Both the position numbers and the translations under genes were made by a program. Below the pieces are notes generated by a model, which did no database searches, was not told the DNA's origin, and worked only from the letters and a program-made list of their open reading frames with translations. Shown piece after piece: positions 4,975-49,719 of a stretch of DNA of 64,000 nucleotides. The stretch comes from Delftia sp. PS-11 (GTDB lineage: Bacteria; Pseudomonadota; Gammaproteobacteria; Burkholderiales; Burkholderiaceae_C), in the NCBI RefSeq assembly GCF_029870285.1, contig NZ_JACSYA010000031.1, forward strand, positions 1-64,000, written 5' to 3'. Positions within the stretch are counted from its first letter, which is position 1. Every line of letters begins with the position of its first letter.

Positions 4975-4991
4975 GGCTGCTCGCAGCCTGT

Positions 4992-6419: not shown

Positions 6420-6510
6420 AGGAAAGGTCCTCGATCAAAACAGGGGCGTCACATATCCTCCGGAGGCGGCGTAGGCCGCGTTCCGGGGCAATTGCTGTGT
6501 CACATACCGC

Positions 6511-6858
6511 TCAGTAGCGCGGCACGCCCGGGTCGCGCTCGCGCGACCAGGCATCAATGCCTCCACTGATGTTGGCGACGGTCTCGAAGCCCTGGTTCAG
6601 CAGGAAGGCGGCGACATGCATGCTGCGTGCGCCGTGGTGGCACAGGCAGGCTGTGGGGCGGTCCGGATCGAGTTCCTGCAGGCGCGAGGGGATCTCTCCC
6701 ATGGGGATGCAGCACAGCTCGAAGCCCTCGGCGCGTACACTGGCCTGGGCCACTTCCCAGGGCTCGCGCACGTCCAGCACAAGGGGCAGGACGTTGCTGG
6801 CGCCGGCAGGGCCGGCCAGCCATTGATCGAGGAGCGCGGGAGGCACTTGGGCAAGCAT
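6511..6858 (-). CDS. Rhodanese-like domain protein
   Basis: A 115-residue single-domain rhodanese, a family that transfers or carries sulfane sulfur on an active cysteine. The substrate loop CHHGARS carries the catalytic Cys, and the VLDVREPWEVAQA motif near the N-terminus is the classic first rhodanese signature. The C-terminal NISGGIDAWSRERDP is also typical. It lies between pcm and tolC on the same strand, with gaps of 63 and 91 bases, an order I recall from related Comamonadaceae. The physiological acceptor is unknown. Confidence 0.88.
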   Translation of the reverse strand: MLAQVPPALLDQWLAGPAGASNVLPLVLDVREPWEVAQASVRAEGFELCCIPMGEIPSRLQELDPDRPTACLCHHGARSMHVAAFLLNQGFETVANISGGIDAWSRERDPGVPRY

Positions 6859-6921
6859 CGGGAGGGGTCCTTGCAGGAAAAGGCAGGGTAGTCACAGCGG
6901 CCCGCCGGGCCGCTGCAGGTT

Positions 6922-30176: not shown

Positions 30177-30490
30177 GGCACGTGAAACTTGGGTCAACCA
30201 TGACGTTTTAACTCCGTAGCCGTCAAATAGGGCCGGCCGCCAGAGCCTTGCGCAGAAGATCCGCCGCGTCTGTCGCTGCAGCGCTACAAAGCCGTGCTTT
30301 GGCGCCTGGAATGGCATTGCGAAGACGAAGGCGCTTCCAAGCGCATGGGCATGGCGTGAAACCGCCTGCCTGCGCAACCACGTGTGTCCTGGAGTCTTGC
30401 TGAACTGAAGGCCACATGCTTTGATGTCCATGCCGCAGCAATGAGTCGCTGGCACGGTGCTGTACAGCCTATGTGAAGGAGTGGCAACGA
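30177..30490. other. 314-base divergent intergenic region, no gene seen
   Basis: Short frames cross it on both strands but none carries a recognisable motif or ribosome site. It must hold the promoters of the ChaC-like gene (minus) and the phage-like gene (plus). No clear operator was found. Confidence 0.45.
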
Positions 30491-31015
30491 ATGGCTCTTG
30501 GCTCGATCATAGAGACCGCAATCAATCCAGCGCTGGCCCTGCTGCCTGCTGCGATGGACACACCCGAAGCGCGCGTGATGCTGCTGACCATCGGTCTTCA
30601 GGAGTCTCGCTTTGTTCACCGCTACCAGCTTGTGAAGGCCCGGCCCGGCGCCAAAGGCCCGGCCCGTGGCTTCTGGCAGTTTGAACTGGGCACGCGCGCG
30701 GGTCGAGGCGGCGTGTGGGGCGTCTATCTGCATCCGGCCAGCCGTTACTGGCTCAGTGGTGTTTGCGTTGCCCGTGGCGTGGCATTCGAGCCACGGGCAA
30801 TATGGAAAGCCATAGAGCAAGACGACGTGCTTGCTGCCGCGCTGGCCCGCCTGCTGCTGTTCACGGACCCGCGCCGGTTGCCTTCCGTCTCTGACGCCCG
30901 AGGCGCCTGGATGCTGTATGCGCTGCGCACCTGGCGCCCCGGCAAGCCGCACCGGCAGACCTGGGATGCGTTCCATGCACAGGCCCGCGCTGTTGTCGCT
31001 GGCACTGCTGCATGA
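30491..31015 (+). CDS. Orphan phage-like protein (possible lysozyme/transglycosylase fold)
   Basis: A 174-residue protein with no signal peptide. Its pattern (MLLTIGLQESRF, then GPARGFWQFELGTRAGRGGVWGVY and DPRRLPSV) resembles small phage proteins near tail or lysis genes, in which an ES-R motif and a GxWQFE motif occur as in muramidase-like folds. Glu in LQESRF would be the catalytic candidate. AAGGAG lies 9 bases before the ATG. No other phage gene is adjacent and the composition matches the host, so this is either an old domesticated remnant or a bacterial family. The function is not established. Confidence 0.6.
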   Translation: MALGSIIETAINPALALLPAAMDTPEARVMLLTIGLQESRFVHRYQLVKARPGAKGPARGFWQFELGTRAGRGGVWGVYLHPASRYWLSGVCVARGVAFEPRAIWKAIEQDDVLAAALARLLLFTDPRRLPSVSDARGAWMLYALRTWRPGKPHRQTWDAFHAQARAVVAGTAA

Positions 31016-31072
31016 GGATGCTGTGAGAGCCCCTCTGTGCCCACATGAAGGTTGCCAAGGAGCTCTTGCCGT

Positions 31073-31528
31073 TTACGCGTTGCGCAGCGGGTCTATTTTT
31101 TCTCCATTGGCATCGGCTGTGTGGCCGCCCTTGTGAGCCCGCGAATTTTCTTGTATCAGTTCGATCTTGTAGCCATCCGGATCCGTGACGAACGCAATCA
31201 CCGTGGAGCCGCCCTTGACCGGGCCGGCTTCGCGTGTGACGTTGCCTCCTGCGGCCTTGATCCTGTCGCAGGCTGCATAGGCGTCAGCAACGCCGATGGC
31301 AATGTGGCCGTAGGCCGTGCCCAGATCGTAGCTTTCTGTGCCCCAGTTGTAGGTCAGCTCGATTTCCGCCTGGGCTGGGTTGCCGCCTTCAAAGCCAAGG
31401 AAGGCCAGGGAGTACTTGTACTCCGGGTTCTCGGATGTTCTCAGCAACTGCATGCCCAGAACCTGTGTGTAAAAGTCGATGGAGCGCTGGAGGTTACCCA
31501 CGCGCAGCATGGTGTGAAGGATTCGCAT
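31073..31528 (-). CDS. gloA: Lactoylglutathione lyase (glyoxalase I)
   Basis: A 151-residue glyoxalase I that isomerises the methylglyoxal-glutathione hemithioacetal to S-lactoylglutathione. The metal ligands are visible as His in RILHTMLRV, Glu in AEIELTYN, His in YGHIAIGV and Glu in YKIELIQ. The [12 protein letters not shown] motif is diagnostic. The start at 31528 gives the standard N-terminus. The last gene of host-like composition before the AT-rich island, it reads away from it. Confidence 0.95.
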
Positions 31529-31858
31529 GGATCGGATTGTGCCGGGGTTCGATGCCGGGTTCACTGAAATCTTTCGATGCCCCCAGGACTTGATCCCTTC
31601 GTGCTGCCGCTTGGCCGCTGTCTGCGGTGCGGCATGGCGCATCCGTTGAACCCTGCGTGGAATCCATCGAGGGCTTCAGGGTTGGCACGAAGAGAGATTT
31701 CTTAAGAATATTCTTAAGACAATTCATCTGTCTGATGAAAAATAAGACGAATCTTATGAATTTTGGTTGAATAATCAGACATGTCTAATTATTGTTTTTT
31801 TGAAAGATTTATAAAATAAAGGCGATGCCTGTATCTTTATGTAAAAAAGGATCCATCA
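31529..31858. promoter_or_regulatory. AT-rich promoter region of the Rcs-like island
   Basis: This 330-base region changes from host-like composition to strongly AT-rich at about 31690. It contains the 20-bp palindrome at 31700-31719, a perfect decamer AGACATGTCT at 31777-31786, and the ribosome site AAGGA before the first regulator. No gene is seen in it. Confidence 0.6.
31700..31719. promoter_or_regulatory. Perfect 20-bp palindrome resembling an RcsAB box
   Basis: TCTTAAGAATATTCTTAAGA is a perfect palindrome. Its centre TAAGAATATTCTTA fits the enterobacterial RcsAB-box pattern TaAGaatatTCctA as I recall it. It lies 140 bases before an RcsB-like response regulator, so it is a candidate autoregulatory site. 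Confidence 0.6.
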
Positions 31859-32584
31859 ATGGGAAATTTCATTCTTCGCGTTCTTTTGGCTGATGACCAT
31901 CCTGCAATTTTGCTGGGATTGGAAAGCGCTCTGAAGGCGAACGGTGAAATACAGATTATAGGAAAGGCGCGAAATTCCACTGAAATCATGGAAATCCTCA
32001 AAAATGAAGGGTGCGATGTATTGATCACGGACTACTCCATGCCTGGGGGCATCTACGGCGATGGATCTATCATGATCAATTTCATCAAGAAAAAATATCC
32101 TGATGTCAAGATTGTTGTGATGACAATGATAGAGAGCATGGCAGTCATCAGGAGTCTGACCGATCAAGGTATATATCGGATAATCCATAAATCTGATTCA
32201 CTTGGAAGTTTGCTTCCTGCCATTTATGCTGCATATACGGGTGGGCGCTATGTTTCACCAAGCGCCGGTAAGTATCTTGACGAGAAAAGCCGGATGATTT
32301 TTCGATCTTTCGTTCCCAAGATTTCCAGAAAAGAGAATGAGGTTCTTATGCTGTTTGTTTCTGGCATGACTGTTTCCGAGATTGCCAGAGAACTTTACAG
32401 AAGCATCAAAACAGTCAGTTCTCACAAAATTTCCGTAATGAGCAAGCTCGGCATCAGAAAAGATGCTGATCTTATTCGATATGGGGTGGAAATGGGGTGG
32501 GTTGATTCAAAGAAAAACGATGCCAAAATAAAAATTCCACGGATGGCTAAAAATAAATCTGTTGCTTCATCCGCAAAAAATTGA
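31859..32584 (+). CDS. RcsB-like response regulator (first copy)
   Basis: A 241-residue NarL/FixJ-type regulator. The receiver has the acidic pair in LLADDHP, the phospho-acceptor Asp58 in VLITDYSMPGGIYGDG, and the lysine in IIHKSDSL. The MPGxxYGDG stretch, the following FIKKKYPDVKIVVMTM and the absence of a typical switch order resemble RcsB. The C-terminal LuxR-type helix-turn-helix is KENEVLMLFVSGMTVSEIARELYRSIKTVSSHK. A Lys/Ala-rich tail (about residues 215-241) is extra. It leads an operon-like arrangement with the hybrid kinase 39 bases downstream. The gene is clearly AT-richer than the surrounding chromosome. Confidence 0.9.
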   Translation: MGNFILRVLLADDHPAILLGLESALKANGEIQIIGKARNSTEIMEILKNEGCDVLITDYSMPGGIYGDGSIMINFIKKKYPDVKIVVMTMIESMAVIRSLTDQGIYRIIHKSDSLGSLLPAIYAAYTGGRYVSPSAGKYLDEKSRMIFRSFVPKISRKENEVLMLFVSGMTVSEIARELYRSIKTVSSHKISVMSKLGIRKDADLIRYGVEMGWVDSKKNDAKIKIPRMAKNKSVASSAKN

Positions 32585-32623
32585 TTGTTCATTTGTGAAA
32601 TTTTAAATAAATGATCGGAAATT

Positions 32624-35512
32624 ATGAAGGGAGATTTAAGTCTTTTAGATAAATATCATAAAAATCTGCTTTATGGTGGGGGTTTTACTTTTTCCCTGCT
32701 TATTATTGTTGTGATGACTCTTTTGTCCTTGATGGAATTAGGCACATTCCTTGAGGAAAAAAAGTCCGATTTCAATCATAAAAAAACACAGGTAACCGCC
32801 GTAATAGAATCCCGCCAGATGATGCTGCTCAGAAGCATCATTGCAGCAGAAACACTTTGGAAATTTCAGCATCAGCCACGGTCAAGTCCCAGAATCTGGG
32901 CAGAGGAACGACAAGGGCGGGTTGCACCTCTGGTGCTGCGTGGAGAGCCGTCTGAAGCATTCTCTGATAACGCATATTACAGAGATATCTTGAACGAGCT
33001 GGCCTATCTGGCTAATTCCAGTTTTATTGGACAAGAGGATGCAGCATTGTCCTCGTATGTTTTCAGTACGAATGATGAGTTCATCGGCGCCTTGCTTCCT
33101 GGCGGGATTTTGATGACTGATCGGCAAACAGTACTGCATGCTATTGATGAGCAGATTTCACTGTTGCGCGGAAATGGCAGTCGGCTTGATCATCTGTTGG
33201 CACTTCGCCGACCTGTGTGGCTTGATCCATTGGATAGTCCATTGACTGGAATTAAGTCATTTCGTGTATTTGCATCTGCATTACAAGATGGAATGCCTTT
33301 TATTTCCATAGTCAGTGATTTCCCGATCTCCTATCTCGGTGCAGTTCTGAGCGAGAAAAATGGTTCAGGCAGTTATTTCATGGTTAACTCATCAAGAAGG
33401 GTGATTCTGGGAAGTCCGGTGTCTCTTCATACTGATGAAGATGGTCTCATGAATTTTGAGGATTTTCCAGAAGTGATAAATATTTTTCAGAGTTTTTTGA
33501 AAAGAAATTATGATTGTCTATATAAGGATGGTAGATTTTACTTTTCTTCGGACATATCAAATTCTGGCATGGCTCTGGTACACGATTTTTCATGGAGAGA
33601 TATTTTTGACTCGCTGAAGAATCAACTTTTTGTTTACTGGTTTTCTGCAATTTTTGTGATATTTGTTCTGTGGGTGTTTTTTATTTATTTCAATAAAAAG
33701 ATTTTCTCTCCAATATATAGGAAATCACAATATGTTGTCGAGAGCGAAAGTCTGAGCAGAACGCTTGTTGCAACGGCTCCTTATGGACTTGGCATCTTCT
33801 CGATGAATGAGTGTCGAGTGATTTTTGAAAATAATCTTATGAATGACTACCGTGGGAAGATGGTGGTCTCTGAGCAGGGGGGGAAAAAGAGTTTGGCAGA
33901 TTTTTTCTATGAAACATATGCCAAACACAATAATTCAGAGAATGATTTGATAAATTGCGATGTGGAGATTGTTGTTGGCGGGAATGTTGTTGAATTATCT
34001 ATTTCATTGATAATTTCTTACTATCAGGGTTCCCGTGTTCTGCTTTGTGGGTTTTCTAATATTGCCAGCCATAAACAGATTGAGAGAGATCTTGAGAAGG
34101 CAAGGCAGTCTGCTGAGGAGTTGAATAGGGCAAAATCATATTTTCTTGCGGCCATGAGCCATGAGATAAGAACTCCGTTGAGTGCCATATTGGGAAATCT
34201 GGAGATCCTCAGAAGAAGCAGATTGTCCAGTGAACAGAAAAAGAGGCTGAGGACCATTCTTCTGTCATCCAATTCTTTATTGAATTTCTTGAGTGATATC
34301 CTTGATTTTTCCAGGATGGAATCTGGTGGGTTGGTCATTGAAAAAAAAGAATTCGATTTGAAAAAATTGCTTCGTCATGTTGCCGATGTTTATGAGCCTT
34401 TAGCCAAAGAATCTGGATTGAATTTTATTCTCGATATTGATGAATCAGTTGGTGAAAAATATTTTGGTGATGCTTTCCGCATCAGGCAGATACTGAATAA
34501 TCTCCTGAGCAACGCGGTGAAATTCACGGAGAAGGGCCATGTGAAAGTCGATGTCCGTGAAAATTCGGATGGATTGAGCATCAGAGTGACAGACACAGGA
34601 ATCGGAATTCATGCTTCGCAACATGAACTGATATTTGATGCCTTTAAGCAGGCGCACCAGGGCATTGCCCAGCAGTTTGGGGGATCTGGCCTGGGTCTTG
34701 CGTTGTGCAAGAAGCTGGCCCAGCTCATGGGCGGGAACATATCTCTTGACAGTGCGCCATCAAAAGGAAGTACTTTTCACCTGAATCTGCCAGATCACAG
34801 TGTCTCTTTCAACAGTCCTGAGAAAAATGCTGCTGGCCTCGCCGATTTGCATAAGAGGATACGGGTACTGGTCGTGGATGACCATCCTGTCAGCAGAATG
34901 CTGTTGGTCGATCAGATAAGTATTCTGGGGTGTGCCGTGGATTCTGCCGAAAATGGAGAGACTGCTCTTCGTGCAGTGGATGCAGGGGATTTCGATATGG
35001 TATTCACGGATCTGCAGATGCGTGTCATGGATGGCTATGCCTTTTCAGCCCAACTGAAGCAAAAGAAAAATAATATCCCTGTCATCGTTATTACTGCTCA
35101 TGCCAGTGAGGAAGATAGAAAAAGATGCCGTGAACATGGAATCAGTGAAATTCTATTAAAGCCGGCATCTTTGAATGATATAGAGGAAACTATCCTGGCC
35201 AATGTTGAATTAAAAAACAGGCCTCAGATTATTTCTTCTGAGAATGCTAAATCCGTTGTTCATGACTTCAAGTTGGTCCTGGCATCTTCTGCATTTCAAT
35301 CGATGGAAAAAATCAAGCAGCTCTACGCCAGGAAAGAAAAGGGCCTGATTTTTCAGGAAATTCATTCAATGAAGGGCTCTTTTGCGATGGCCAATCACAC
35401 AGAGATGGTGCAGGCGCTCGCTGAGCTGGAGGAATCGCTGAGGTCGGACGACGCATCTTGGTTTGATACATGCATCAAGCACTTGGATCGGATCGTAGGA
35501 GGTGTGCGATAG
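32624..35512 (+). CDS. Hybrid sensor histidine kinase with receiver and HPt domains (RcsC/BvgS-like)
   Basis: A 962-residue inner-membrane phosphorelay kinase. TM1 is near residues 20-39, a periplasmic sensor of about 290 residues follows, and TM2 is near 335-358. After a PAS-sized linker come the H-box FLAAMSHEIRTPL (His513), the ATPase motifs NNLLSNAVKFTEKG, DTGIGIHAS and GGSGLGLAL, a receiver (VLVVDDHP, phospho-acceptor Asp796 in FTDLQM), and an HPt domain with His914 in EIHSMKGSF. All phosphorelay residues are present. The sensor is not a Venus-flytrap domain as in BvgS, and I do not recognise it. It could phosphorylate one or both neighbouring RcsB-like regulators. Confidence 0.92.
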   Translation: MKGDLSLLDKYHKNLLYGGGFTFSLLIIVVMTLLSLMELGTFLEEKKSDFNHKKTQVTAVIESRQMMLLRSIIAAETLWKFQHQPRSSPRIWAEERQGRVAPLVLRGEPSEAFSDNAYYRDILNELAYLANSSFIGQEDAALSSYVFSTNDEFIGALLPGGILMTDRQTVLHAIDEQISLLRGNGSRLDHLLALRRPVWLDPLDSPLTGIKSFRVFASALQDGMPFISIVSDFPISYLGAVLSEKNGSGSYFMVNSSRRVILGSPVSLHTDEDGLMNFEDFPEVINIFQSFLKRNYDCLYKDGRFYFSSDISNSGMALVHDFSWRDIFDSLKNQLFVYWFSAIFVIFVLWVFFIYFNKKIFSPIYRKSQYVVESESLSRTLVATAPYGLGIFSMNECRVIFENNLMNDYRGKMVVSEQGGKKSLADFFYETYAKHNNSENDLINCDVEIVVGGNVVELSISLIISYYQGSRVLLCGFSNIASHKQIERDLEKARQSAEELNRAKSYFLAAMSHEIRTPLSAILGNLEILRRSRLSSEQKKRLRTILLSSNSLLNFLSDILDFSRMESGGLVIEKKEFDLKKLLRHVADVYEPLAKESGLNFILDIDESVGEKYFGDAFRIRQILNNLLSNAVKFTEKGHVKVDVRENSDGLSIRVTDTGIGIHASQHELIFDAFKQAHQGIAQQFGGSGLGLALCKKLAQLMGGNISLDSAPSKGSTFHLNLPDHSVSFNSPEKNAAGLADLHKRIRVLVVDDHPVSRMLLVDQISILGCAVDSAENGETALRAVDAGDFDMVFTDLQMRVMDGYAFSAQLKQKKNNIPVIVITAHASEEDRKRCREHGISEILLKPASLNDIEETILANVELKNRPQIISSENAKSVVHDFKLVLASSAFQSMEKIKQLYARKEKGLIFQEIHSMKGSFAMANHTEMVQALAELEESLRSDDASWFDTCIKHLDRIVGGVR

Positions 35513-35600
35513 ATTTTTTTAAAAAAATTTTCAAAATCATTGCATTTTGCTATCAATAGATGGTATAAATATGAAAATTATTCTACGTAACGTGACATCC

Positions 35601-35620
35601 ATATTTTCCTTGGAAAATAT
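35601..35620. promoter_or_regulatory. Perfect 20-bp inverted repeat upstream of the second regulator
   Basis: ATATTTTCCTTGGAAAATAT consists of perfect 9-bp arms around TT, 68 bases before the second RcsB-like gene. It may be an operator for a regulator of this island. Its half-site differs from that of the palindrome at 31700. Confidence 0.5.
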
Positions 35621-35687
35621 TTTGTAATCTCTTTCTAAATATCTGTTAGTGATTCAAGTATTTTCATGATGTCTGAAAGGAAGTGCA

Positions 35688-36374
35688 ATGAAAGAAATAA
35701 AAATTTCCGTTCTGATTGCCGATGATCATCCTGGAATGATTTCGGGAATGAAGCATGAGCTATCGAATGTGGATTCAATTCATTTAAAAGCAAGTGCAGG
35801 AAATACAACCGAGCTGATGGAACGGCTGGATGCGGAACATTATGACGTTCTGGTATCCGATTACTCCATGCCTGCAGGAAATTATGGTGATGGCTTGGCG
35901 CTTTTTGGGTATATTTCCAGGAAATTCCCAAATCTTGGGCTGGTTGTATTGACCATGCTGGATAATCCTGCAATATTCCACTCCCTTGCCAAAGTGCTGC
36001 GGGTCAGCATCGTCAGTAAGTCTGACTCGCTGATGCATCTTTTGCCTGCAATCCATGCTGCCTATACTGGTGGAATATATCATTCTCCTGCTGTCATGAT
36101 TCGTATGGAGAAAATGGCAATGGATGCAGGGCTAGTCAAAAAATCCTCGCATTTCGAGCTCAGCCCCAGAGAATCAGAAGTGTTGAGGCTTTATGCCTCG
36201 GGATTGCGAGTCGATGATATTGCTGCCAAACTGAATCGCAGTAAAAAAACGATCAGTGCCCAGAAAATCAAGGCAATGCACAAGCTTGGTATAGAGAGGG
36301 ATATTGAGTTGATGAAATATGCCCTCGAATGCGGCTGGACAGGAGCTAGTGGAGTGGATAGTGAATTGGAATAA
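35688..36374 (+). CDS. RcsB-like response regulator (second copy)
   Basis: A 228-residue paralogue of the regulator at 31859. The receiver has LIADDHP, Asp58 in VLVSDYSMPAGNYGDG and Lys in SIVSKSDSL. The HTH domain LSPRESEVLRLYASGLRVDDIAAKLNRSKKTISAQKIKAMHKLG is strikingly close to that of enterobacterial RcsB, closer than the first copy. It is preceded by AAGGAAG and converges on the RcsD-like gene with 2 bases between stops. The two copies differ enough in the recognition helix region to have distinct targets or to heterodimerise. Confidence 0.9.
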   Translation: MKEIKISVLIADDHPGMISGMKHELSNVDSIHLKASAGNTTELMERLDAEHYDVLVSDYSMPAGNYGDGLALFGYISRKFPNLGLVVLTMLDNPAIFHSLAKVLRVSIVSKSDSLMHLLPAIHAAYTGGIYHSPAVMIRMEKMAMDAGLVKKSSHFELSPRESEVLRLYASGLRVDDIAAKLNRSKKTISAQKIKAMHKLGIERDIELMKYALECGWTGASGVDSELE

Positions 36375-36376
36375 TT

Positions 36377-37870
36377 TCAGGGATTGTTTTCTTGATCGAA
36401 TCTGGTGATATTTTCCGAAATGATGTGTAAGAGATACTCTATATCCTGTATATTTGCGGATAATCCTTCTGCCTTGATGACACTTTCAAGTTGAACGCAT
36501 TTTCTGGATACTTCATGCATGCCCAAGGATGAGAGTGATCCTGCAAGATTGTGCAGTTCTTGAATGATAGCCAATGTGTTTTCGGAATCGATGGAAGATT
36601 TGATATTTTGATAGGAAAGATACAAAGATTTTCTGAATGCATCTATAACATGGCTCGATAAAGAGCCCTTGGGAGATGTTGTAGACGGTGTTTCCCATGC
36701 GTTGTTTGCAGAGTTTGTGGCTTGCTGCAATGCCTTGAAAAGACTGCCCAGTGAGTGGCTGTTGATCAGGGTGCTGCGTCCTGCAGTGATGAGCGTGGTG
36801 GGATTGCTTCTGTTGCATTCTATTGTCCATGACGATTGTGCAACAACTGCATTTTCATCGTTTGCAGTCCATCGTGATCCTCCTTCAAAAATGATCACGC
36901 AGCTTGCATCATTGATATGCTTGATGTCTGCCTGTCCGGGTTGAAGATATGATGCGACATTGAGTCCCCAGTGTTCAAGATATGGAATGATGTAGTCGTG
37001 ATGCTCCAGCGAGGGGGAGATGAAAACTACGCTGTGCCCTGCAAAGAATTGTTGATAGGAGTTTGCTTCGGTATCGCTGGAGTCCAGCATCTCGCAAGGT
37101 ATTTCTACAATGAAATTGCTGCCTGCCTCAGGAGCACTTGTCATCCATAGATTGGCGTTCAGGTCTTTGCATAAATTTTGGCAGAGCGCCAGTCCAAGCC
37201 CAGCATGCCCATCATGTCCTTGTGTTGTCATGAAAGGTGAGAATATTTGACCATGCAGGCCTGGAGCAATGCCGGTTCCATTATCCTTGACTGAGACTCG
37301 CAATGCCATCTGTCCTGGTGCAGATGTATATTTTTCTATTTGAATGATAATCTTTCCATTCCTTGTGAATTGAATGGAGTTTTCGAGAAGATGCTCTAGC
37401 AGTTGTGCGATCTTTTTTTGATCATTATGGATGATGATCGGGAACTGCTTGCACCTTACATGAACGGAGGTTTTTTGTAATTCTGCCAGATTGAAGAATT
37501 TCGCAGCACTTTTGGCTCCAATTTCGCTGGCATCAAAAGTCATTTGATCCTTTGTTTGGCGATGATTTCGCATCGAATCAGAAAACTCCGTGATGTTGGA
37601 TATTTGTCTCATCAATGCATCGGAGTTGTTCATGATTTTTTGCCATCTTTCCTGTTGATCAGGTGGCAAATGACTAGGGTCGATAAGCATCATATGCCCC
37701 ACCATGGAACTCAGCGGCGTACTGATGGCACGGATGACAGAATTCAATTGAATTATATTGTTTTCTGCAGGATTTTCTTTTGAAAAAATCTTGTTGCTAT
37801 TAATTTCTTTGTTTGAGGAATTTGATTGGTTTGTGGCTGCTTTTGATTTTAATGAGATTTTTTTTTGCAA
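36377..37870 (-). CDS. RcsD-like phosphotransfer protein (kinase-like, pseudo-receiver, HPt)
   Basis: A 497-codon reading beginning at TTG in an A-rich tract. Residues 40-75 occupy the place of the H-box, but the segment reads VIRAISTPLSSMVGHM, with no His where SHELRTPL would have it. ATPase-like motifs follow (LLENSIQFTRNG, DNGTGIAPG, HAGLGLAL). Next is a receiver-sized region (VVFISPSLEHHDYIIPYLEHWG) without the acidic pair and acceptor Asp. The C-terminus is an HPt domain with His440 in ELHNLAGSL. This domain order and the loss of the first His match RcsD, which moves phosphate between RcsC and RcsB. No ATG starts this frame; the likely true N-terminus is the anchor at 37937, one base out of frame. 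Confidence 0.8.
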   Translation of the reverse strand: MQKKISLKSKAATNQSNSSNKEINSNKIFSKENPAENNIIQLNSVIRAISTPLSSMVGHMMLIDPSHLPPDQQERWQKIMNNSDALMRQISNITEFSDSMRNHRQTKDQMTFDASEIGAKSAAKFFNLAELQKTSVHVRCKQFPIIIHNDQKKIAQLLEHLLENSIQFTRNGKIIIQIEKYTSAPGQMALRVSVKDNGTGIAPGLHGQIFSPFMTTQGHDGHAGLGLALCQNLCKDLNANLWMTSAPEAGSNFIVEIPCEMLDSSDTEANSYQQFFAGHSVVFISPSLEHHDYIIPYLEHWGLNVASYLQPGQADIKHINDASCVIIFEGGSRWTANDENAVVAQSSWTIECNRSNPTTLITAGRSTLINSHSLGSLFKALQQATNSANNAWETPSTTSPKGSLSSHVIDAFRKSLYLSYQNIKSSIDSENTLAIIQELHNLAGSLSSLGMHEVSRKCVQLESVIKAEGLSANIQDIEYLLHIISENITRFDQENNP

Positions 37871-37937
37871 TAAATAAAAGAATGCAAAAAATAAGAAATA
37901 TGGCTGCAGAAATTAATAGTGTGACCGTGGAAGGCAT
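37800..37937 (-). CDS. Membrane-anchor ORF, probable N-terminus of the RcsD-like protein
   Basis: An ATG at 37937 opens a 45-codon frame coding for a strong transmembrane helix (VTLLISAAIFLIFCILLFIAKK) that then runs into a run of nine A residues. In the sequence as given it continues out of frame and stops at TAA (37800-37802). One added A (or loss of two) would fuse it to KISLKSKAA of the downstream kinase-like frame. It could be an interrupted gene, a slippage-expressed fusion, or a homopolymer error. Confidence 0.6.
   Translation of the reverse strand: MPSTVTLLISAAIFLIFCILLFIAKKNLIKIKSSHKPIKFLKQRN
37858..37866 (-). other. A9 homopolymer at the frame junction of the RcsD-like gene
   Basis: Nine consecutive A on the coding strand (T on the given strand) mark the point where the anchor frame and kinase-like frame meet. 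Runs of this length are known sites of transcriptional slippage and of phase variation. Confidence 0.7.
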
Positions 37938-38306
37938 TTTTGAATCTTAATGATTGGGCCGGTGAATGCACGGTTTTCTGGCATCGGAGCAAGATGCTTT
38001 TTGCATGATGTTCCATTGATATGCCAGTCATCAGGATATTCTATATTTGAGTAAGTAGGGAATATTTTGCCAAATTATGACGGTTCGTAATTTAAATAAC
38101 AAAAATTACACTTTGTGGTGCTGCTGCAAATCATGTCTGTTGAATTTTGGATGATGAGGCCAGCCCGGGTGGGGGCTGCTGCAGAAAAGCCCCCAGGCTG
38201 GCAGGCTTTCAGGCATGGGGCATGCCCATGCTTCATGGCTGGCTTGCATCGTTGTGCCCATGCATAACAGATTTATTTCTGTATGTTTATACAGTATCAT
38301 GAGCGC
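37938..38306. other. Divergent intergenic region with RcsB-like half-sites and a LexA box
   Basis: AT-rich near 37940-38110, then host-like. TCAGGATATTCTAT (38031-38044) and GTAGGGAATATTTTGC (38055-38070) each partly resemble the island's TAAGAATATTCTTA palindrome and lie upstream of the RcsD-like gene. A LexA-type box occupies 38279-38294. No gene is seen. The base composition shift at about 38110 marks the right edge of the island. Confidence 0.5.
38279..38294. promoter_or_regulatory. LexA (SOS) box
   Basis: CTGTATGTTTATACAG matches the CTGT-N8-ACAG consensus of the LexA operator exactly, with a TA-rich centre and flanking TT and TA as in strong sites. It ends 12 bases before the ATG of the small membrane protein at 38307. 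Confidence 0.75.
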
Positions 38307-38600
38307 ATGACTACTGATCAGATTGCTGTCGCCTTGCTGGGGGTTGCTGCTGCCTGGCTGTCCCAGGCCCGTGGTGCGGGCTGGCGCCGCTGGGCCTGCG
38401 TCTTCGGTTTGCTGGGCCAGCCACTGTGGCTGTTCAGCAGCTGGGCCGCTGGACAATGGGCGCTTTTTACGGTTGCCATACTTTTCACGCTGGTGTGGCT
38501 CAAAGGGCTGTGGGTGCACTGGATTGCTGTCCCGCGCAGGGATCGGGGCCAAAGCCTTGGCACCATACAGATCACGCCAGGAGCCAGACGCGCTGATTGA
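38307..38600 (+). CDS. Small phage-like membrane protein behind a LexA box
   Basis: A 97-residue protein with about three hydrophobic segments (IAVALLGVAAAWLSQ, ACVFGLLGQPLWLFSSWAAG, WALFTVAILFTLVWLKGLWVHW). The RRWACVFGLLGQPLWLFSSWAAGQW pattern resembles small membrane proteins encoded in phages and near PnuC-like folds; I know no function for it. An overlapping LexA box predicts induction by DNA damage. No other phage gene adjoins it, and downstream sequence to 39145 holds no supported gene. Confidence 0.65.
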   Translation: MTTDQIAVALLGVAAAWLSQARGAGWRRWACVFGLLGQPLWLFSSWAAGQWALFTVAILFTLVWLKGLWVHWIAVPRRDRGQSLGTIQITPGARRAD

Positions 38601-39145
38601 AATCGGCGGCAGATATCCTGGCTTGCGGCGGCCGGCTGCCCTGGGTGCGTATCAAGGCATGCCTGCTGTCCGCGTTCCCTGAGGCACATGCGCCAGCGTT
38701 GCGAGCAAAAGCTCATACAGCGCAACCTTGCGCGGCTTTGCTGTGCAGCGCCGAGACCTGCATGGACCCAGCGCTGGCAACTCGAATCCGGCAGGCAGGT
38801 TTTGCAGCACTTGCAGATGCGCTGGAACGCTGCAGCGCGTTAATACCGCCACGGCCAGGCGACTTTCCACAGCTGCCAGCTTCATAGACAACGATGGCAG
38901 CGGGTTCTTGCTCCATACCTCATCCTCTGGGGCGCCTACCCAGACCAGGGGGGCATGATGGCCGCATGTGCCGAGGGATGCCTCGTGGCTGCAGCATGGC
39001 ATTGATTTTTATCAAGAAAAGTGCATTTTCTGCAGTCCTGCTGGAGAGAGAGTGCATTCATCACATTTTCCAGAGATATTGTTCAATATATTTTTATACA
39101 CTGATGAGTAATAACAAATTGTTTCATTTGTCCTGAGGAACTGGA
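38601..39145. other. 545-base stretch without a supported gene
   Basis: A 96-codon frame at 38597-38887 and an opposing frame at 38652-39002 are open, but neither has a ribosome site or a recognisable motif. Composition becomes AT-rich after about 39000, giving the promoter region of the chemotaxis receptor. Remains of a degraded gene are possible. Confidence 0.45.
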
Positions 39146-40729
39146 ATGAGGTGGTTGGAAACGTGGTCGGTCGGGCGCAGGCTGGCCCTGGGGTTTGGAT
39201 CAGTGGTTCTTTTGCTGCTGCTGGTCGCAGGAACGATGGCAGTACAGATAAAGCGGATTGGAGAGGCCAATGAGGTGCTGCAGTCGGAGCAGGCCGAAAG
39301 GCTGATGCTTGCCAAGGAATGGCGGGAGAACATTCTGGTCAACGTGACACGTGCTTTGGCGCTTGGTGTGACAGCGAATCAGACTTTGCTGAATTTTTTC
39401 TCTGCGGATATGGCAAATCTGGTGCAGCGCACCACGGTGATACAGAAGCGGTTTGCCGAAATCGAGGTCAGCGAGCAAGGCCGGGCACTGCAAGACCGCA
39501 TGGCGGATGTGCGCAAGGCCTACCTGGATGTGCGCCAGAAGCTGGAGAATGTCGGTGCCGATGAGCAGACCAGGCATGCTCTGGTGCTGTCCATGAAGGA
39601 GATCAGCGGCAGGTACGTCAATGAAGCGCAAGCGCTGGTGGCGTTCGAGGAGCGCCGGGGTCGGCAATTGAGCGAAGACATCGCCAATTCCCTTTCATTG
39701 GCCAGCAAGGTTCTGGTGTGGGCCACAGTGTGCGCGATTGCGGTCGCAGCTTGGCTGGGCTGGGCCATCAGCCATGGCATCACGTCTGCGTTGCGAGCGC
39801 TGCAAAGTACAGCCCGCCGCATCGCGGAGGGAGATCTGACGGCCGATGTGCAGCAGCCCAGGGGCCGTTCCGAGCTGGCATTGCTTGCGATGGATGTGGG
39901 GCGCATGCAGGACGCGCTGCGCGATCTGGTCAGCCAGGCACGGGAGGCTTCCAATGCGATAGGCCAGGCGACCAGCGAAGCGGCCCATGGCAATGTCGAG
40001 CTGAGCTCGCGCACGGAGCAGGCCGCATCCAGCCTGGAGCAGACGGCCAGTGCGATGGAGGAGTTGACGAGCACGGTGCGCCAGTCTGCAGACTCTGCAC
40101 AGACGGCAAGCCAGTTGGCCGTGAGCGCGGCCGAAGTAGCGCAGCGCGGAGGTCTGCTTATGCAGGATGTCGTCAACACCATGCAGCAGATTGACCAGTC
40201 CAGCCGCAAGATTGCCGACATCATCAGCGTGATTGACGGGATTGCCTTTCAGACCAATATTCTGGCGCTCAATGCGGCGGTAGAGGCTGCGCGGGCCGGT
40301 GAGCAGGGTCGGGGCTTCGCTGTGGTGGCCAGCGAGGTACGCTCGCTGGCCCAGCGCAGCGCTGACGCGGCCAAGGAGATTAAGCTGCTGATTGCCACGT
40401 CCGTCGAGCGCGTGGAGGCTGGAAGCCTGCTGGTGGAGAATGCAGGCGCGATCATCCATGACATCGTCAGCAGCGTTGACCGGGTGCGCAGCATTGTCGG
40501 GGAAATTTCCGTGGCCTCCGGCGAGCAGAGCCGGGGCATCGGCGAGGTCAATGTGGCCGTGAGCCAGCTGGACCACATGACGCAGCAAAATGCGGCCCTT
40601 GTGCAGCAGACTTCTGCGGCCACTGACAGCCTGGGACAGCGAGCCCAGGCGCTGGGTCAGGTCATCAGCCGTTTTCAGGTGTCGGCCCGCGTGGCACCTT
40701 TGGCGCGACTGGCGATTGCAGGGCAGTGA
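39146..40729 (+). CDS. Methyl-accepting chemotaxis protein (no C-terminal tether)
   Basis: A 527-residue chemoreceptor. TM1 ([20 protein letters not shown]) and TM2 ([21 protein letters not shown]) flank a four-helix-bundle-type periplasmic sensor of about 160 residues. A HAMP domain follows, then the signalling hairpin with the tip [40 protein letters not shown]. The C-terminus ends shortly after the last helix in Ala/Arg-rich sequence and lacks the xWxxF pentapeptide seen in the other two receptors here. The ligand is unknown. Not part of an obvious operon. Confidence 0.95.
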
Positions 40730-44927: not shown

Positions 44928-46706
44928 TTAGAACTTTTCCCAGCCGTCGTCAGACTGGGTGGCGGCCAGGCGTGCTGGTTCAGCAGCCTTTGAGGGGTGG
45001 ACTGTACTAGCGATGGGCTGTGCAGGCTTGCGTACGGCAGCTGTCCTTGGTGAAGGCGCAGCTGCGCGCTCCAGCGCCTGATTGCTGGCGGGCTGTAGCG
45101 CTGCAGGTGCCAGCGCCGGAGCGGGTGGCGTGCGCGAATCCTGGGCGCCCAGCTGGAATACGCTCACCAACTGCACTAGTTGCGCAGCCTGGCGGTTCAG
45201 GCTGTCTGCTGCGGCAGCTGACTCCTCGACCAGCGAGGCATTTTGCTGTGTGGTCTGGTCGAGCTGCTGTACGGCGTCACTGACCTGCACGACACCCTGG
45301 GTCTGTTCCTGGGTTGCCGCGCCGATTTCGGCGATCAGCTCAGACACGCGTCGTGTCTGGTCCACGATGTCGTTCATGGTGGCGCCAGCCTCGGCAACCT
45401 GCTGAGAACCGGCGGCCACTTTGCCTACGCTTTCCCCGATCAGCCCCTTGATTTCCTTGGCTGCATTGGCGCAGCGCTGCGCCAGCGTGCGCACCTCGCC
45501 TGCCACGACCGCGAAACCCCGGCCCTGTTCGCCTGCGCGGGCTGCTTCCACGGCCGCGTTCAGCGCCAGGATGTTGGTCTGGAAGGCAATGCCGTCAATG
45601 ACGCTGATGATCTCTTCGATCTTGCGCGAGCTTTGCGTGATGTCTTCCATGGTCGTGACGACACCACGCACCACTTCGCCGCCATGTGTGGCCGTGGCGC
45701 TTGCGGACTGGGCCAGACCCGTGGCACTGCGTACCGTGTCCACGTTCTGCTGCAGGGTGGAGCTCATCTGCTCCATCGATGCCGCAGTTTCTTCGAGGTT
45801 GGCGGCTTGCGCTTCTGTGCGCGCGCTCAAATCCGCATTGCCAGAGGCGATCTGGCTGGCGCCTGTGGCAATAGACTCGCTGCTGCTGCGGACCTGACTG
45901 ACGATGCCTGCAAGGCTGGCACGCATGCCATTCAGTCCTGCGAGAAGGCTGGTAGTGTCGCCCGGGCGCAGTTGCACAGCCACGGCCAGGTTGCCCCTGG
46001 CGACTTCCTGCGTAATCTGGGCTGCGTATGCCGGCTCACCGCCCAGCAGATCCTTGACGGTACGGGTGATGGACCATGCTACAAGCGTCCCGATGACCAG
46101 TGCTGCGAATGCCAGGCTCAGCATCAGCTTTCCAGCCGCTTGTGCCCGGTCTTCAGTGGCCTGCGCTGTTTCAAGGGCACGTGCCTGCTGGTGGCGCATC
46201 ATGTCATTGATGGCGGCGAAAAACGCATCTTGCTTCTGGCGAAAGCCCCCGCCTTGGCTCAGCATCCGTGATACGGTCTGCAGGTCATGAGCCATGGCCG
46301 CCGCCATGATTTCTTCGAGCTGCGGCATGTAGCTTTGCCGGGTTTGCACAAGTTTGTCAAACAGCGCGATGCCCTCGGGCGAGCGCAAGCCCCCACGAAA
46401 CTGCTCCATGAGTTGATCGATCTGCTTGCGGCTGTCTGCGATGGCGGTACGGGCCATTTCTTTTTCGGCAGGGTCTTCAAGGATGGCCATGCTGCGCACG
46501 GCACGGAAAACGGTTTCCACCGAACTCTTGATCTCAACCAGCTTGAGCAGGTTGTCGATGCGGACATCTGCCAGGTTGGCGATTTCATCCGAAGCCTGGA
46601 CCAGCCTGGAACGTCCGTACAGTGCGGTTGCAAGTCCGATACAAATCAGTACGGCAAATCCCAGGCCCAGCATGGAGCCAATTTTCATTCTCTTCAGAAA
46701 TTTCAT
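44928..46706 (-). CDS. Methyl-accepting chemotaxis protein with CheR-tether pentapeptide
   Basis: A 592-residue chemoreceptor. TM1 ([23 protein letters not shown]) and TM2 ([21 protein letters not shown]) flank a four-helix-bundle sensor containing [18 protein letters not shown] and the signalling tip [37 protein letters not shown] follow. The C-terminal linker is Ala/Pro-rich and ends DDGWEKF, a GWEKF pentapeptide of the xWxxF type that tethers CheR or CheB. The ligand is unknown. It is 12 bases beyond the unknown barrel gene on the same strand, with no strong promoter in the gap. Confidence 0.95.
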
Positions 46707-46742
46707 GCGTCTTCCTTGTGGACTAGATATTTCTCCTGGGTG

Positions 46743-48110
46743 TCATTCCGTTCTGTGATGACGCAGCCAGAGGGACGGCGGTATTCCGTAGTGCGCGGAA
46801 AAATCTCTTGAAAAAGTGGAAAGCGAAGAATAACCAAGGCGCGATGAGATCTGCCCTATGGTCTGTTCCGTGGTCAGTAGATATTCTGCCGCCAGGTGGA
46901 TTTTGCTTTGTCGTATGTAATCACCAATACTGCAGGATCTGCTGTTTTTGAAAGAAATTTCCAGCGTCCTGCGACTAACTTGACAGTGGTCTGCTATTGC
47001 TTGTATCCGTAATTTTTTATCAATATTACCGTCGATGAACTGCAATGCGCGCTTTACATGTGCCGGCTCCAAATCACGCAATCTGGACTCGTTCATGGAA
47101 TTGCCAGAGGACCGCTCCGACAAAGGTCGGACAGCCACGCTTTTGAGGCGCATGATGTTGAGTGATTTCAGTGTCGATAGAGCCGCAGGGTAGTCTCCAC
47201 GGGTTTCATGAATATGAAATTCATAGACTAGTGCATTGCGGTGAATGCCATCCAGCTGGTAAGTTCCTGCCATGGATCTGGCCAGCGCCGATGCCTGAAG
47301 AGCCTGGGCGTATTGGCGCCGGGCACAATGCACCAGCGAGCAGCTGAGCCACGCCCAGGCAGCTACCGGAGGGTTGCGCATCTGGTGATGCACGCCGATT
47401 TTTTCGATGGCTTCGATCGGCTGCATGCCATCCCGGTCCGTATCAAGTCCTTCAAGCGCATGCAGTAGCAAAGCACAGTAAGGCCATTCCCGGTCTGCAG
47501 GCAGTTGGCGTCCTACTTTTTCCAGTACGAATCTGAGTGTGTCTCGGTCAGGGGCAGCATTTCCCAGGCGTACTAATCCCGAGTCAGGAGGAGGGCCATG
47601 CCAAAGATCCTGATGATGCCGAAAAAGAAAAGCTTTCCATAGAAGCAAGGCTTTGGCCCAGGTCATCATAGCAGGCAACCATGGGTATTCATCTTTGGCC
47701 ATTCTTGCAAATTCATGGCCACGGCTTTCAATCAGATCGAAAGCGGTGTCCAGCTCACCCAGCCTGCCGTGTGCCATTGCCAGTATATAAATGGCACGTG
47801 CCATGGCTTCGGCTTTTAGCAGCGAGGGTTTGGAAATTGCTTCATTGACTATTGCGATGGCATTGCGCTCTTCGCCCAGCTGGCATAGCATGAAAGCTGA
47901 TGCAATACGCGCAGCCACTGCGCGTTCAGGCATGCGATGCAATTCGAAGACAGCCTGTGCTTCGTGAATGGATTTGAGAACCAGTGCCGGATAAATAGGT
48001 GGTTCCGGCCATCTGCATGCATGCAGCAATTCATCGGACCGCAGTAGCTTGTTCTGCCTGGAGTGATGATCCTGGTTGCTGCAGGATATTATTTTCCACA
48101 ATCCGGACAT
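46743..48110 (-). CDS. AraC-family regulator with a long helical N-terminal domain
   Basis: A protein of about 455 residues. The C-terminal 100 residues are an AraC-type double helix-turn-helix (KKLRIQAIADHCQVSRRTLEISFKNSRSCSIGDYIRQ, then TEQTIGQISSRLGYSSLSTFSRDFSAHYGIPPSLW). The N-terminal 330 residues are helical and TPR-like (AEAMARAIYILAMAHGRLGELDTAFDLI), unlike the cupin domain of AraC. The start at 48110 is a guess; the frame is open to 48257. Its 5' side is a long AT-rich region. A role near the adjacent chemoreceptor is not shown. Confidence 0.82.
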   Translation of the reverse strand: MSGLWKIISCSNQDHHSRQNKLLRSDELLHACRWPEPPIYPALVLKSIHEAQAVFELHRMPERAVAARIASAFMLCQLGEERNAIAIVNEAISKPSLLKAEAMARAIYILAMAHGRLGELDTAFDLIESRGHEFARMAKDEYPWLPAMMTWAKALLLWKAFLFRHHQDLWHGPPPDSGLVRLGNAAPDRDTLRFVLEKVGRQLPADREWPYCALLLHALEGLDTDRDGMQPIEAIEKIGVHHQMRNPPVAAWAWLSCSLVHCARRQYAQALQASALARSMAGTYQLDGIHRNALVYEFHIHETRGDYPAALSTLKSLNIMRLKSVAVRPLSERSSGNSMNESRLRDLEPAHVKRALQFIDGNIDKKLRIQAIADHCQVSRRTLEISFKNSRSCSIGDYIRQSKIHLAAEYLLTTEQTIGQISSRLGYSSLSTFSRDFSAHYGIPPSLWLRHHRTE

Positions 48111-48633
48111 GCTTTCGTATTGAAGCTTGTGATTTTTTTGCGTCAATGGATCCACTGAAGGTCTATTATTCAATAAATAAATTAAAATTATGGATGGGGC
48201 GGTGCGTTTTTTGACGGTTCCCATCAAGGGTACATTCGATGATTCCTTTTTGAGCATTTATTGCCATGAACATCTTACAGGGCGTAAATACTTTTTTTTA
48301 CATTTGTTTTTGTATTTTTGTTGTCATATAGCGAAAATTCTTGGCAATTTGCGAAAATTTTACACAGCAAGAGTGAATATCAGGATACCCCCTGAATTCA
48401 TGTGGTGAAATAAAATCAGCAGAAGATAATCCCCTTTCATTCGTGCGGTTTTTTGCACGGGTCAAGAACAAGCAGGGGAAGCCTTGGTGCGGTGATTCAA
48501 GGTGTGTGGCAGTGCCCAATGGAGAAGGCAGGGGGCATGATTGGCGTTGGCTTGGCTGCCAAGCACCTGCGCCCGCCCCTGTGCGCAGGTGGGAGTCGCC
48601 GGCAGGAGCCGGCGTGAAGTGTAGTGGGCGAAG
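48111..48633. other. 523-base AT-rich intergenic region
   Basis: Mostly AT-rich to about 48480, consistent with the promoter region of the AraC-type gene, then GC-rich hairpins downstream of the porin gene. Frames of 70 codons or so are open, but none is supported. Confidence 0.45.
48564..48614 (-). terminator. Paired hairpins beyond the porin gene
   Basis: CACCTGCGC (48564-48572) pairs with GCGCAGGTG (48583-48591), and CGCCGGC (48597-48603) pairs with GCCGGCG (48608-48614). They begin about 20 bases past the porin stop on the minus strand. No T run follows, so this may be an operon end structure rather than a classic terminator. Confidence 0.4.
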
Positions 48634-49668
48634 TCAGAAGGCGTGGGATACTCCCAGCAATACCGAGCTGGGTCTGCTGCCGGCTGTCACAGCAGGGCCG
48701 GCGTTGCTGGCGGTATTGATGGTGAATGCAGCGCCAGCCTCGTTATGAATGCGCGAGATGCCTGCATAGAGTTTGGTGCGCTTGGACAGCGCGTGGTCAT
48801 AGCGCACGCTCAGCGCCTGTGCATCGCTGTGGTCACGTGCCTGGCCCCGGTAGGCACCGTAGGACAGCAGTACCTGGCCTGCAGCACTGACAGGTACCGT
48901 GACGCTGGCTTCGTAAAAGCGCCCCTGTGCGCTGGTGGCCGAGGGCAGGTCGTCGCGCCGTGTGGATATCAGCAGCGCGGCACGTACAGTCCCGAAATCG
49001 TAGGAGGCCCCCAGCAAGGCGTAGCGGTCGGTGTTGGTGGCCGTGGTGCGGCGCTGCATCCAGGAGACACCGGCGGTCCAGGGCCCTGACACATAGTCCA
49101 GCGAGCCGCCGTACAGGCTGCCTACAGTGGAGCCAGCGGTTTCGCCGAAGGAATACATGGCACGCGCCGTGAAGCCGCCCAGGCTGGGCGACTGGTAGCG
49201 CAGCGAATTGTTGGCGCGCAGCACCGAGCCATCACGGAAGTAGTTGGCAGCGTTGCCCCAGATCAGTCCGGTGAGCGCGTAGGTGGCCAGGGAGGTGTGC
49301 AGTGTGGTGTAGTGCCGTCCCGCTGTCAGCTGGCCCCAGCCGCCACTCAGCCCGACGAAGACCTGCCGGCCAAAGGCCAGCCCGCCCTGGCCGCTCAGGC
49401 CGGTATCTCCATTGAAACCCGCTTCGGCGACATAGACGGCGCGCAGGCCGCCACCCAGGTCCTCGGTGCCGCGCAGCCCCCAGCGCGATCCCGCGATCAC
49501 GCCGCTTTCCACGCGCTGCAGGCTGCCGTTGCCGGTGCGTGCCGATTCCACGGCCATGTCCACGACGCCGTAAAGCGTGACGCTGCCGGTGGTCTGTGCC
49601 TGTACGGGCAAGGCCATGGCTGCTGTTGCAGCGGCCATGGCCCAGCCTCCTCGTTGCAAGGTATTCAT
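48634..49668 (-). CDS. Porin (Burkholderiales general porin type)
   Basis: A 344-residue trimeric-type porin of the outer membrane. A signal peptide (AMAAATAAMALPVQAQ) precedes TTGSVTLYGVVDMAVES, the usual first strand, and SRWGLRGTEDLGGGLRAVYVAE is the second hallmark. The protein ends VLLGVSHAF with terminal Phe. AGGAGA precedes the ATG at 49668. It is last in the operon that starts with the alcohol dehydrogenase, which suggests it admits that pathway's substrate. Confidence 0.93.
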   Translation of the reverse strand: MNTLQRGGWAMAAATAAMALPVQAQTTGSVTLYGVVDMAVESARTGNGSLQRVESGVIAGSRWGLRGTEDLGGGLRAVYVAEAGFNGDTGLSGQGGLAFGRQVFVGLSGGWGQLTAGRHYTTLHTSLATYALTGLIWGNAANYFRDGSVLRANNSLRYQSPSLGGFTARAMYSFGETAGSTVGSLYGGSLDYVSGPWTAGVSWMQRRTTATNTDRYALLGASYDFGTVRAALLISTRRDDLPSATSAQGRFYEASVTVPVSAAGQVLLSYGAYRGQARDHSDAQALSVRYDHALSKRTKLYAGISRIHNEAGAAFTINTASNAGPAVTAGSRPSSVLLGVSHAF

Positions 49669-49719
49669 AGTGTCTCCTCCAGTGAAGTGGCGGGGCGTCA
49701 TGGCCCCGCTGGTTGAGGC

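Follow-up and report, generated by a model that had tools for sequence, protein, structure and literature searches.

The window analysed here is a 64,000-nucleotide stretch of Delftia sp. PS-11 (contig NZ_JACSYA010000031.1) that carries the genes of an apparent phosphorelay of the RcsB family. Four genes make up the locus. RR1 (31859–32584, forward strand) encodes a response regulator of 241 amino acids. It is followed on the same strand by HK962 (32624–35512), which encodes a membrane hybrid sensor kinase of 962 amino acids, and RR2 (35688–36374), which encodes a second regulator of 228 amino acids. The assignment of both regulators to the RcsB family draws on NCBIfam and phylogenetic trees, that of RR2 also on PDB sequences; the assignment of HK962 draws on Pfam, NCBIfam and hydrophobicity. 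The fourth gene, H497 (36377–37870, reverse strand), starts with TTG and encodes an RcsD-like pseudokinase/histidine phosphotransfer (HPt) protein of 497 amino acids. It is convergent with RR2, so that the two stop codons meet. The locus lies on an AT-rich island: GC content is 0.417 in RR1, 0.425 in HK962, 0.447 in RR2 and 0.424 in H497, and 0.40–0.45 in 1-kb windows over 32001–38000, compared with about 0.65 around it. ARAGORN finds no tRNA gene in the whole window. The four-gene set is real and no chance pattern, because RR1, the kinase gene, RR2 and a convergent HPt gene adjoin the same glyoxalase gene (85–89% identical) in four further genomes of the genus. The initial annotation had described all four proteins and the island correctly. 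It had also equated the set with the enterobacterial Rcs system and proposed a relay with two alternative outputs and two HPt donors, claims to which we return below.

Both regulators combine the Pfam domains Response_reg and GerE and share the receiver motif DYSMPxGxYGDG reported for them at the outset; the helix-turn-helix string then quoted is that of RR2, and that of RR1 differs. RcsB is the best NCBIfam model for both (154.3 bits for RR1 and 162.3 for RR2, each below the equivalog cut-off of 235). RcsB also provides the best PDB sequences for RR2 (139 bits), the next being EvgA at 39 bits. In a tree of 48 regulators, with four E. coli regulators (UvrY, NarL, EvgA and FimZ) as outgroup, RR1, RR2, E. 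coli RcsB and RcsB of the PvrSR/RcsCB type fall on one side (98/96) and the four outgroup members on the other. A topology that groups the regulators with EvgA to the exclusion of RcsB was rejected (p-AU 0.00077; 21 rows), which, with EvgA as the reference, speaks against a BvgAS/EvgAS-type system. One with E. coli RcsB outside the other regulators was not rejected (p-AU 0.216; 21 rows). The trees recommended by the initial annotation as a check thus leave both regulators in the RcsB clade and not in another branch of the NarL family. Equivalents of RcsB Asp56, Thr87 and Lys109 are retained in both. On the DNA-base contacts given in the available part of PMC5829831, the base-contacting Lys180 is likewise retained, and the Ser184 position holds Ser in RR1 and Ala in RR2. 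The closest named kin of RR2, among the best 120 of 879 matches, are Delftia and Burkholderia proteins. Many of the homologues in that set come from Burkholderia, Paraburkholderia, Achromobacter, Stenotrophomonas and Dyella, and several are already named RcsB by their source; the regulators alone are therefore not novel. RcsB relatives at two other loci (L032 and L086) carry Gln at the Lys180 position, in genomes without enrichment of the boxes described below (G028, four sites against six control sites; G067, three against eight), which hints at altered DNA specificity. At L080 a 1048-residue open frame (4016–7159) contains an RcsB-like regulator region and is perhaps a fusion. Loci L030 and L031 were set aside as relatives of the window locus because, by eye and on the basis of a motif, they hold a different, BvgS-like pair.

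HK962 was described as a hybrid kinase with receiver and HPt, and all its Pfam domains score over their cut-offs: HisKA (34130–34327), HATPase_c (34466–34795), Response_reg (34865–35194) and Hpt (35288–35491). Two strongly hydrophobic segments (32696–32752 and 33629–33685) fit transmembrane helices. Its best NCBIfam model is RcsC (383.5 bits, below the equivalog cut-off of 920); by Pfam, the HPt domain of HK962 is absent in E. coli RcsC.

H497 is the unusual component. HATPase_c (75.4 bits) and Hpt (33.6 bits) are over their Pfam cut-offs, HisKA stays below (17.7 against 26.9 bits), and Pfam finds no Response_reg. From its N terminus, the protein has pseudo-HisKA helices (residues 34–101; 37568–37771), an ATPase domain in which the N, G1, F and G2 boxes are mostly retained (residues 107–261; 37088–37552), a pseudo-receiver (residues 271–389; 36704–37060) and an HPt domain with His440 as the expected phospho-acceptor (residues 404–495; 36386–36661). 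Its H-box reads IRAISTPL, and aligned active kinases have SHEIRTPL or SHELRTPL, so that Arg47 stands in place of the histidine; its two full-length relatives, P0122 and P0123, also have Arg there. The receiver-like region adopts a receiver fold in the structure model and has no acceptor Asp. The domain reading in the initial annotation, a kinase-like region without its H-box histidine, a receiver-like region without its Asp and a good HPt domain, is therefore upheld in each part. Structure prediction gives the kinase half a complete kinase fold, and its structural matches include RetS and GacS; the top match for residues 37–389 is ShkA (6qrj), tied with several kinases. The NCBIfam RcsD model gives 74.4 bits against a cut-off of 634, and Pfam detects no RcsD_ABL in H497 at E ≤ 0.1, where the same library gives 144 bits in E. 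coli RcsD. The RcsD-ABL structure is not among the 50 structural matches listed, which excludes nothing. Upstream, an ATG at 37937 opens a predicted transmembrane segment (37858–37937, reverse strand) in a different frame, which reaches the frame of H497 at a run of nine A directly after the TTG start. In P0123 an N-terminal transmembrane segment is in frame. Slippage, phase variation or an assembly error could each explain the break.

Relatives of the locus show how far such a protein has been reduced. RcsB-like matches at E ≤ 1e-25 occur in 11 of the 53 genomes of the genus, and the RR1/RR2 pair in five (G000, G006, G023, G061 and G062). In the other four loci RR1, the kinase gene and RR2 again follow one another and an HPt gene again runs convergently; their genes are poorer in GC than the flanks (0.46–0.57). 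In these four Delftia-type loci the counterpart of H497 is only 262–293 amino acids long and consists of pseudo-receiver and HPt, without the kinase part. A tblastn search near the short genes detects no remnant of that part, its only hits being the hybrid kinase and some short stretches with E ≥ 0.6. At L029 an EAL gene (11315–12523), whose product has a weak N-terminal receiver, is inserted between RR1 and the kinase gene; an EAL-like gene flanks L028 (9624–10418), and the window locus, unlike these two, has no EAL gene. Clusters resembling PvrS–PvrR–RcsC–RcsB are present in two other genomes of the genus (L088 and L089), that of L089 adjoining a fimbrial chaperone gene. Full-length relatives are few. 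P0122 (55%) and P0123 (43%) are the only close matches among the best 120 of 137 protein matches, in a search admitting lengths of 0.55–1.75 times the query, for which reason the shortest forms could not be found by it. An HPt profile search of the genome collection recovered three relatives of H497 among 15 stretches. Profile matches in the family and order samples number 4 of 399 and 5 of 399 genomes, those outside the genus being open frames of 1042–1214 amino acids, full-size kinases by length (G272, G581, G724 and G752). Such scarcity indicates that H497-type proteins are rare.

One explanation for a protein of this kind is decay. H497 would then be the remnant of a kinase, with little function left, as its TTG start, the out-of-frame transmembrane segment upstream, the fewer domains of its relatives and its faster evolution relative to its partners could suggest. 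Against this, the ELHNLxGSL motif around the HPt histidine is invariant in all seven aligned sequences, the window included, and none of the five genes read as DNA has an internal stop. In four of six pairs, the other two not being computable, the short form has dN/dS values of 0.22–0.32, well below one; at the same loci the kinase gives 0.11–0.16 and the regulators 0.02–0.10. By this measure the short HPt form is under purifying selection, and we regard mere decay as improbable.

The descent of H497 can be traced through its last two domains. At L032, in G028, its place is taken by a full-size kinase of 1188 amino acids (HK_A), convergent with an RR2 relative; the same stretch holds a second kinase (HK_B, 986 amino acids), an RR1 relative and a chaperone-usher operon. 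HK_A carries an extra domain between ATPase and receiver that the H497-family profile matches (hhalign E 9.7e-10). The pseudo-receiver profile scores 75 bits in kinase L078_HK1159, 87.6 at L102, 41.5 in HK_A and 29 at L086. The HPt profile reaches 57 bits in L078_HK1159, followed by L085_HK1134 (29), HK_B (26), HK962 (21) and HK_A (19). The pseudo-receiver domain is found in 24 of the 120 homologues of L078_HK1159 listed from 484 matches, the organisms named being Burkholderia and Pseudomonas, and all 24 carriers retain both the H-box histidine and the receiver Asp. That the region is a decayed true receiver is disfavoured, because it matches the extra domain of HK_A and not the five true receivers tried. 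Most likely it is the extra pseudo-receiver of RcsC-like kinases, whose true receiver was lost in H497. A tree of pseudo-receiver plus HPt from 35 proteins joins the seven H497-type rows (86/90). Rooted by choice on HK_A and L086 (100/100), it has full kinases on both sides of them. With E. coli RcsD and RcsC the H497-family profiles stay at noise level. Direct kinship with E. coli RcsD is not supported: hhalign finds the HPt domain alone (E 0.059), and a larger family profile aligns to the ABL domains of RcsD and RcsC from E. coli without significance (p 0.09–0.33), which is suggestive at most. Among the proteins compared, the pseudo-receiver and HPt thus appear closest to RcsC-like unorthodox kinases and not to RcsD. 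H497 looks like such a kinase minus its sensor, its histidine and its true receiver, and would be RcsD-like by architecture, not by descent. The simplest history has these parts lost once, after which the four Delftia-type loci also shed the kinase part. Three stages would then survive in living genomes. (i) A complete kinase that has its sensor as well as pseudo-receiver, receiver and HPt (Burkholderia, Pseudomonas, G028). (ii) A protein without histidine, sensor or receiver; P0123 has a single membrane anchor, and in the window protein and P0122 none was found. (iii) Pseudo-receiver plus HPt alone, as in the four Delftia-type loci. In E. coli the order is rcsD–rcsB, then convergent rcsC. If the places correspond, the two loci may be mirror images: the ruined kinase lies upstream in E. 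coli and is the convergent gene here.

A true enterobacterial rcsCDB set, gained as a whole by horizontal transfer, would account for the AT-rich island and for RcsB and RcsC as best models. The scores for RcsB, RcsC and RcsD nevertheless all stay below their cut-offs, H497 has no RcsD_ABL, and IgaA (PF07095) has no match in the 80-contig assembly, the E. coli control being positive. The nearest named kin of RR2 noted above, and the same chromosomal place in five genomes of the genus, also speak against it. Together with the tree these results led to its rejection as very improbable. A second, milder dip in GC content (0.53–0.55 at 46001–49000) covers a large regulator that looks AraC-type (46743–48257, reverse strand) and the end of a porin-like gene (48634–49701, reverse strand), both judged by eye.

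The region before RR1 may point to the output of the system. A perfect 20-bp palindrome, TCTTAAGAATATTCTTAAGA (31700–31719), stands about 140 bp before the gene and encloses an RcsB-box-like site, TAAGAATATTCTTA (31703–31716); a second, TAAGACGAATCTTA, follows at 31743–31756. The 16-bp core of the palindrome has no other match in the window at up to three mismatches, and none in 100 shuffles. The RcsB-box consensus is TaAGaatatTCctA. A search pattern, TARGANNNNTCYTA, was modelled on the window sites, on four related ones (L028, L074, L086 and contig C23) and on the RcsAB box, and its reversed form, counted in the same genomes, served as control. For the half-sites of the RcsB box, the accessible portion of PMC5829831 was used. 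All 11 genomes with an RcsB-like match were counted, with 25 hand-picked from the 42 genomes of the genus without one (E ≤ 1e-25). Sites exceed control in all five genomes with the RR1/RR2 locus (G000, 11 against 5; G006, 14 against 6; G023, 23 against 8; G061, 19 against 6; G062, 11 against 6; together 78 against 31). They do so in one of the 25 genomes without RcsB kin (45 against 109) and in one of six with other RcsB-like genes (29 against 42). The enrichment has a Fisher p of 4e-5 by genome and 1.4e-11 by site among genomes that are related and not fully independent, and of 1e-10 once G000 and a single G023 site are excluded.

In the genome of the window strain two of the 11 sites lie before RR1. 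Another lies some 320 bp ahead of the fimbrial genes in the one usher operon that was detected (contig C13; chance 0.0008, calculated post hoc). Others precede a type IV minor pilin with ComP_DUS and N_methyl domains, an HDOD-EAL protein and, twice, a small prepilin-like gene without a Pfam match; one falls at the 5′ end of a chemotaxis-receptor frame. Neighbouring genes were named from open frames, GC content at third codon positions (GC3), BLAST against a small reference set and motifs by eye, and Pfam was run on ten proteins near boxes in this genome. In G061 the surroundings of all 19 sites were retrieved. Two sites stand ahead of two different chaperone-usher operons and two more ahead of minor-pilin genes, one of these clusters also encoding a protein 42% identical to the prepilin-like one of the window strain. 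A further site precedes a chemotaxis-receptor gene, three are next to genes of the PvrSR/RcsCB type, and the others have neighbours without evident link. In G028 none of the four exact boxes lies within the L032 stretch, its fimbrial operon included. A 14-mer of the fimbrial promoter, TAGGATTATTCCTA, recurs on either strand in G006, G061, G062 and G033; it was rejected as a conserved fimbrial site because in G061 it lies by an EtfB-like gene (by eye, L139), with the same open frame in L154 and L155. These distributions suggest that RR1 and RR2 may bind RcsB-box-like sites before their own operon and adhesion genes. Alternatively, the relay may work as proposed with RR1 and RR2 using other DNA sites, the boxes belonging to another regulator of the clade. 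A third RcsB-like regulator is indeed present in three of the five genomes (G006, G023 and G061), in G006 of the PvrSR/RcsCB type, and the control counts show that some boxes arise by chance. Yet G000 and G062, which have no third match at E ≤ 1e-25, are also above control, G009 with a PvrSR/RcsCB-type system has eight against five, G033 has six against eight, and two boxes stand directly before RR1. This alternative appears unlikely.

Taken as a whole, the locus is probably best explained by a branched His–Asp–His–Asp relay of the RcsB family. HK962 would use its periplasmic domain to sense a signal from the envelope or surface, phosphorylate its own histidine and then its own receiver. From there the phosphate may pass to its own HPt domain or to that of H497, and either HPt could serve both RR1 and RR2. 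H497, predicted to be unable to autophosphorylate at its H-box, would act as an RcsD-like phosphotransferase, its pseudo-receiver docking partners. Phosphorylated RR1 and RR2 would then act at the RcsB-box-like palindromes of their own operon, chaperone-usher fimbriae and type IV minor pilins.

Several points weigh against this reading. Phosphotransfer is inferred from sequence, and HK962 has its own HPt domain, so that H497 may be dispensable. By HPt alone, kinases without the pseudo-receiver (L085_HK1134, HK_B, HK962) outscore HK_A, and this domain by itself therefore points to L078_HK1159, not HK_A. The support of 86/90 is modest and three H497-type rows have an unusual letter make-up; the kinase-core tree leaves the position of H497 open, with E. 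coli RcsD on an extreme branch. The five box-rich genomes are related, and the box pattern was drawn after the window sites and four others had been seen. An exact box precedes RR1 in two of the five loci (window and L028), L029, L075 and L076 having only diverged forms, and three boxes in the window strain's genome adjoin genes without evident adhesion link. Finally, E. coli RcsD-ABL binds RcsB and inhibits its phosphorylation, as reported in the available part of PMC7418988, which would fit a braking role and a docking role alike. In a rival reading H497 would act chiefly as a brake: as a pseudokinase it would pair with HK962, in the way that RetS inhibits GacS, and its HPt would drain the regulators of phosphate toward the HK962 receiver, so that the system stays off. 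Its ATP-binding boxes retained without a histidine and the RetS and GacS matches of its kinase half are compatible with this role, as is the report that P. aeruginosa RcsC is both phosphatase and HPt relay (PMC3842833, in part). The four Delftia-type loci, however, have dropped the pairing and ATPase part and retained pseudo-receiver and HPt. Pairing is therefore not the conserved function, although an HPt drain would still fit. A role mainly as a brake seems on the whole unlikely.

RcsD is an oddity, a kinase-shaped protein that relays phosphate only. Should H497 be another such case, of independent origin and with its intermediate stages preserved, then what a second kinase gains by losing histidine and receiver but retaining its HPt, and the minimal working part (pseudo-receiver plus HPt), would become addressable. 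For this environmental genus the box counts provide a candidate regulon that comprises fimbriae and type IV minor pilins, and such a locus could show how relays of this kind evolve and allow a guess at the surface fibres under their control. Tentatively, and just short of calling it probable, we put forward the full proposal: a second RcsD-type phosphotransferase outside the Enterobacterales, derived by stepwise ruin of an RcsC-like kinase, with the steps in living genomes, which serves two RcsB paralogues and an RcsB-box adhesion regulon (own locus, chaperone-usher fimbriae, type IV minor pilins), its pseudo-receiver maybe sensing cyclic di-GMP like that of ShkA. Limited literature searches found no title on such a system among those listed for Delftia RcsB, and only Dickeya and E. 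coli work for RcsD in betaproteobacteria or RcsD homologues.

Compared with the enterobacterial Rcs system (E. coli K-12, L033), the window locus shares regulators of the RcsB clade that retain its catalytic residues and Lys180, an RcsC-like kinase, RcsB-box-like sites and the RcsD architecture, a partner ordered as His-less kinase, ATPase, receiver-like domain and HPt with its histidine. It differs in having two RcsB-like regulators and a kinase with its own HPt domain. H497 has no large sensor, retains ATP boxes that RcsD has lost, and matches RcsC-like kinases better than RcsD in its last domains; neither IgaA nor RcsD_ABL is matched. The equation with the enterobacterial system is therefore not supported, given the cut-offs, the missing domains and the affinities of H497. 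The profile searches suggested at the outset do return RcsB for the regulators and RcsC for HK962, below equivalog cut-offs, and the Rcs-like relay is supported in kind, with an unusually clear reduction series; the RcsB clade, the RcsC model, the lost histidine and the two HPts with two regulators stand, and RcsD by descent does not.

ShkA of Caulobacter, the top-ranked though tied match of the H497 model, likewise has a kinase core followed by a pseudo-receiver. It presumably has a true second receiver and no HPt. It differs in being an active kinase whose pseudo-receiver binds cyclic di-GMP (PMC7010744, in part). Y. pestis makes a small RcsD-Hpt protein that alters Rcs signalling, an HPt-only product of the RcsD gene comparable to the short Delftia-type form. 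According to the available part of PMC10191623 it is made beside full-length RcsD from a frameshifted gene, and the short genes here have no kinase part.

In P. aeruginosa (PAPI-1), as described in the accessible parts of PMC3842833 and PMC2696094, the PvrSR/RcsCB system has an RcsB-type regulator and two sensor proteins, one of which is the HPt relay. The PvrS kinase depends on RcsC: the HPt of RcsC passes phosphate on to RcsB, and its phosphatase activity lowers output (PMC3842833). Control of chaperone-usher fimbriae runs through a GAA core that resembles the one in the RcsAB box and is required for cupD1 promoter activity (PMC3842833). The likeness extends to the EAL protein in or beside the related loci L029 and L028. 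Both its sensors are described as full kinases, with one RcsB and no protein lacking both histidine and receiver. At the window locus there is a single full sensor, an EAL gene is absent from 30473 to 40729, and the sole usher detected is on a different contig, C13. In Burkholderia, as cited in the part of PMC3842833 available, CblR receives its phosphate by way of the CblT HPt, from either CblS or CblT. Two sensors, one regulator, a common HPt relay and a pilus output recall the present locus; the likeness is drawn from the published description, in which both sensors have kinase activity. PvrSR/RcsCB of P. aeruginosa and CblRST of Burkholderia are the closest models of the window relay.

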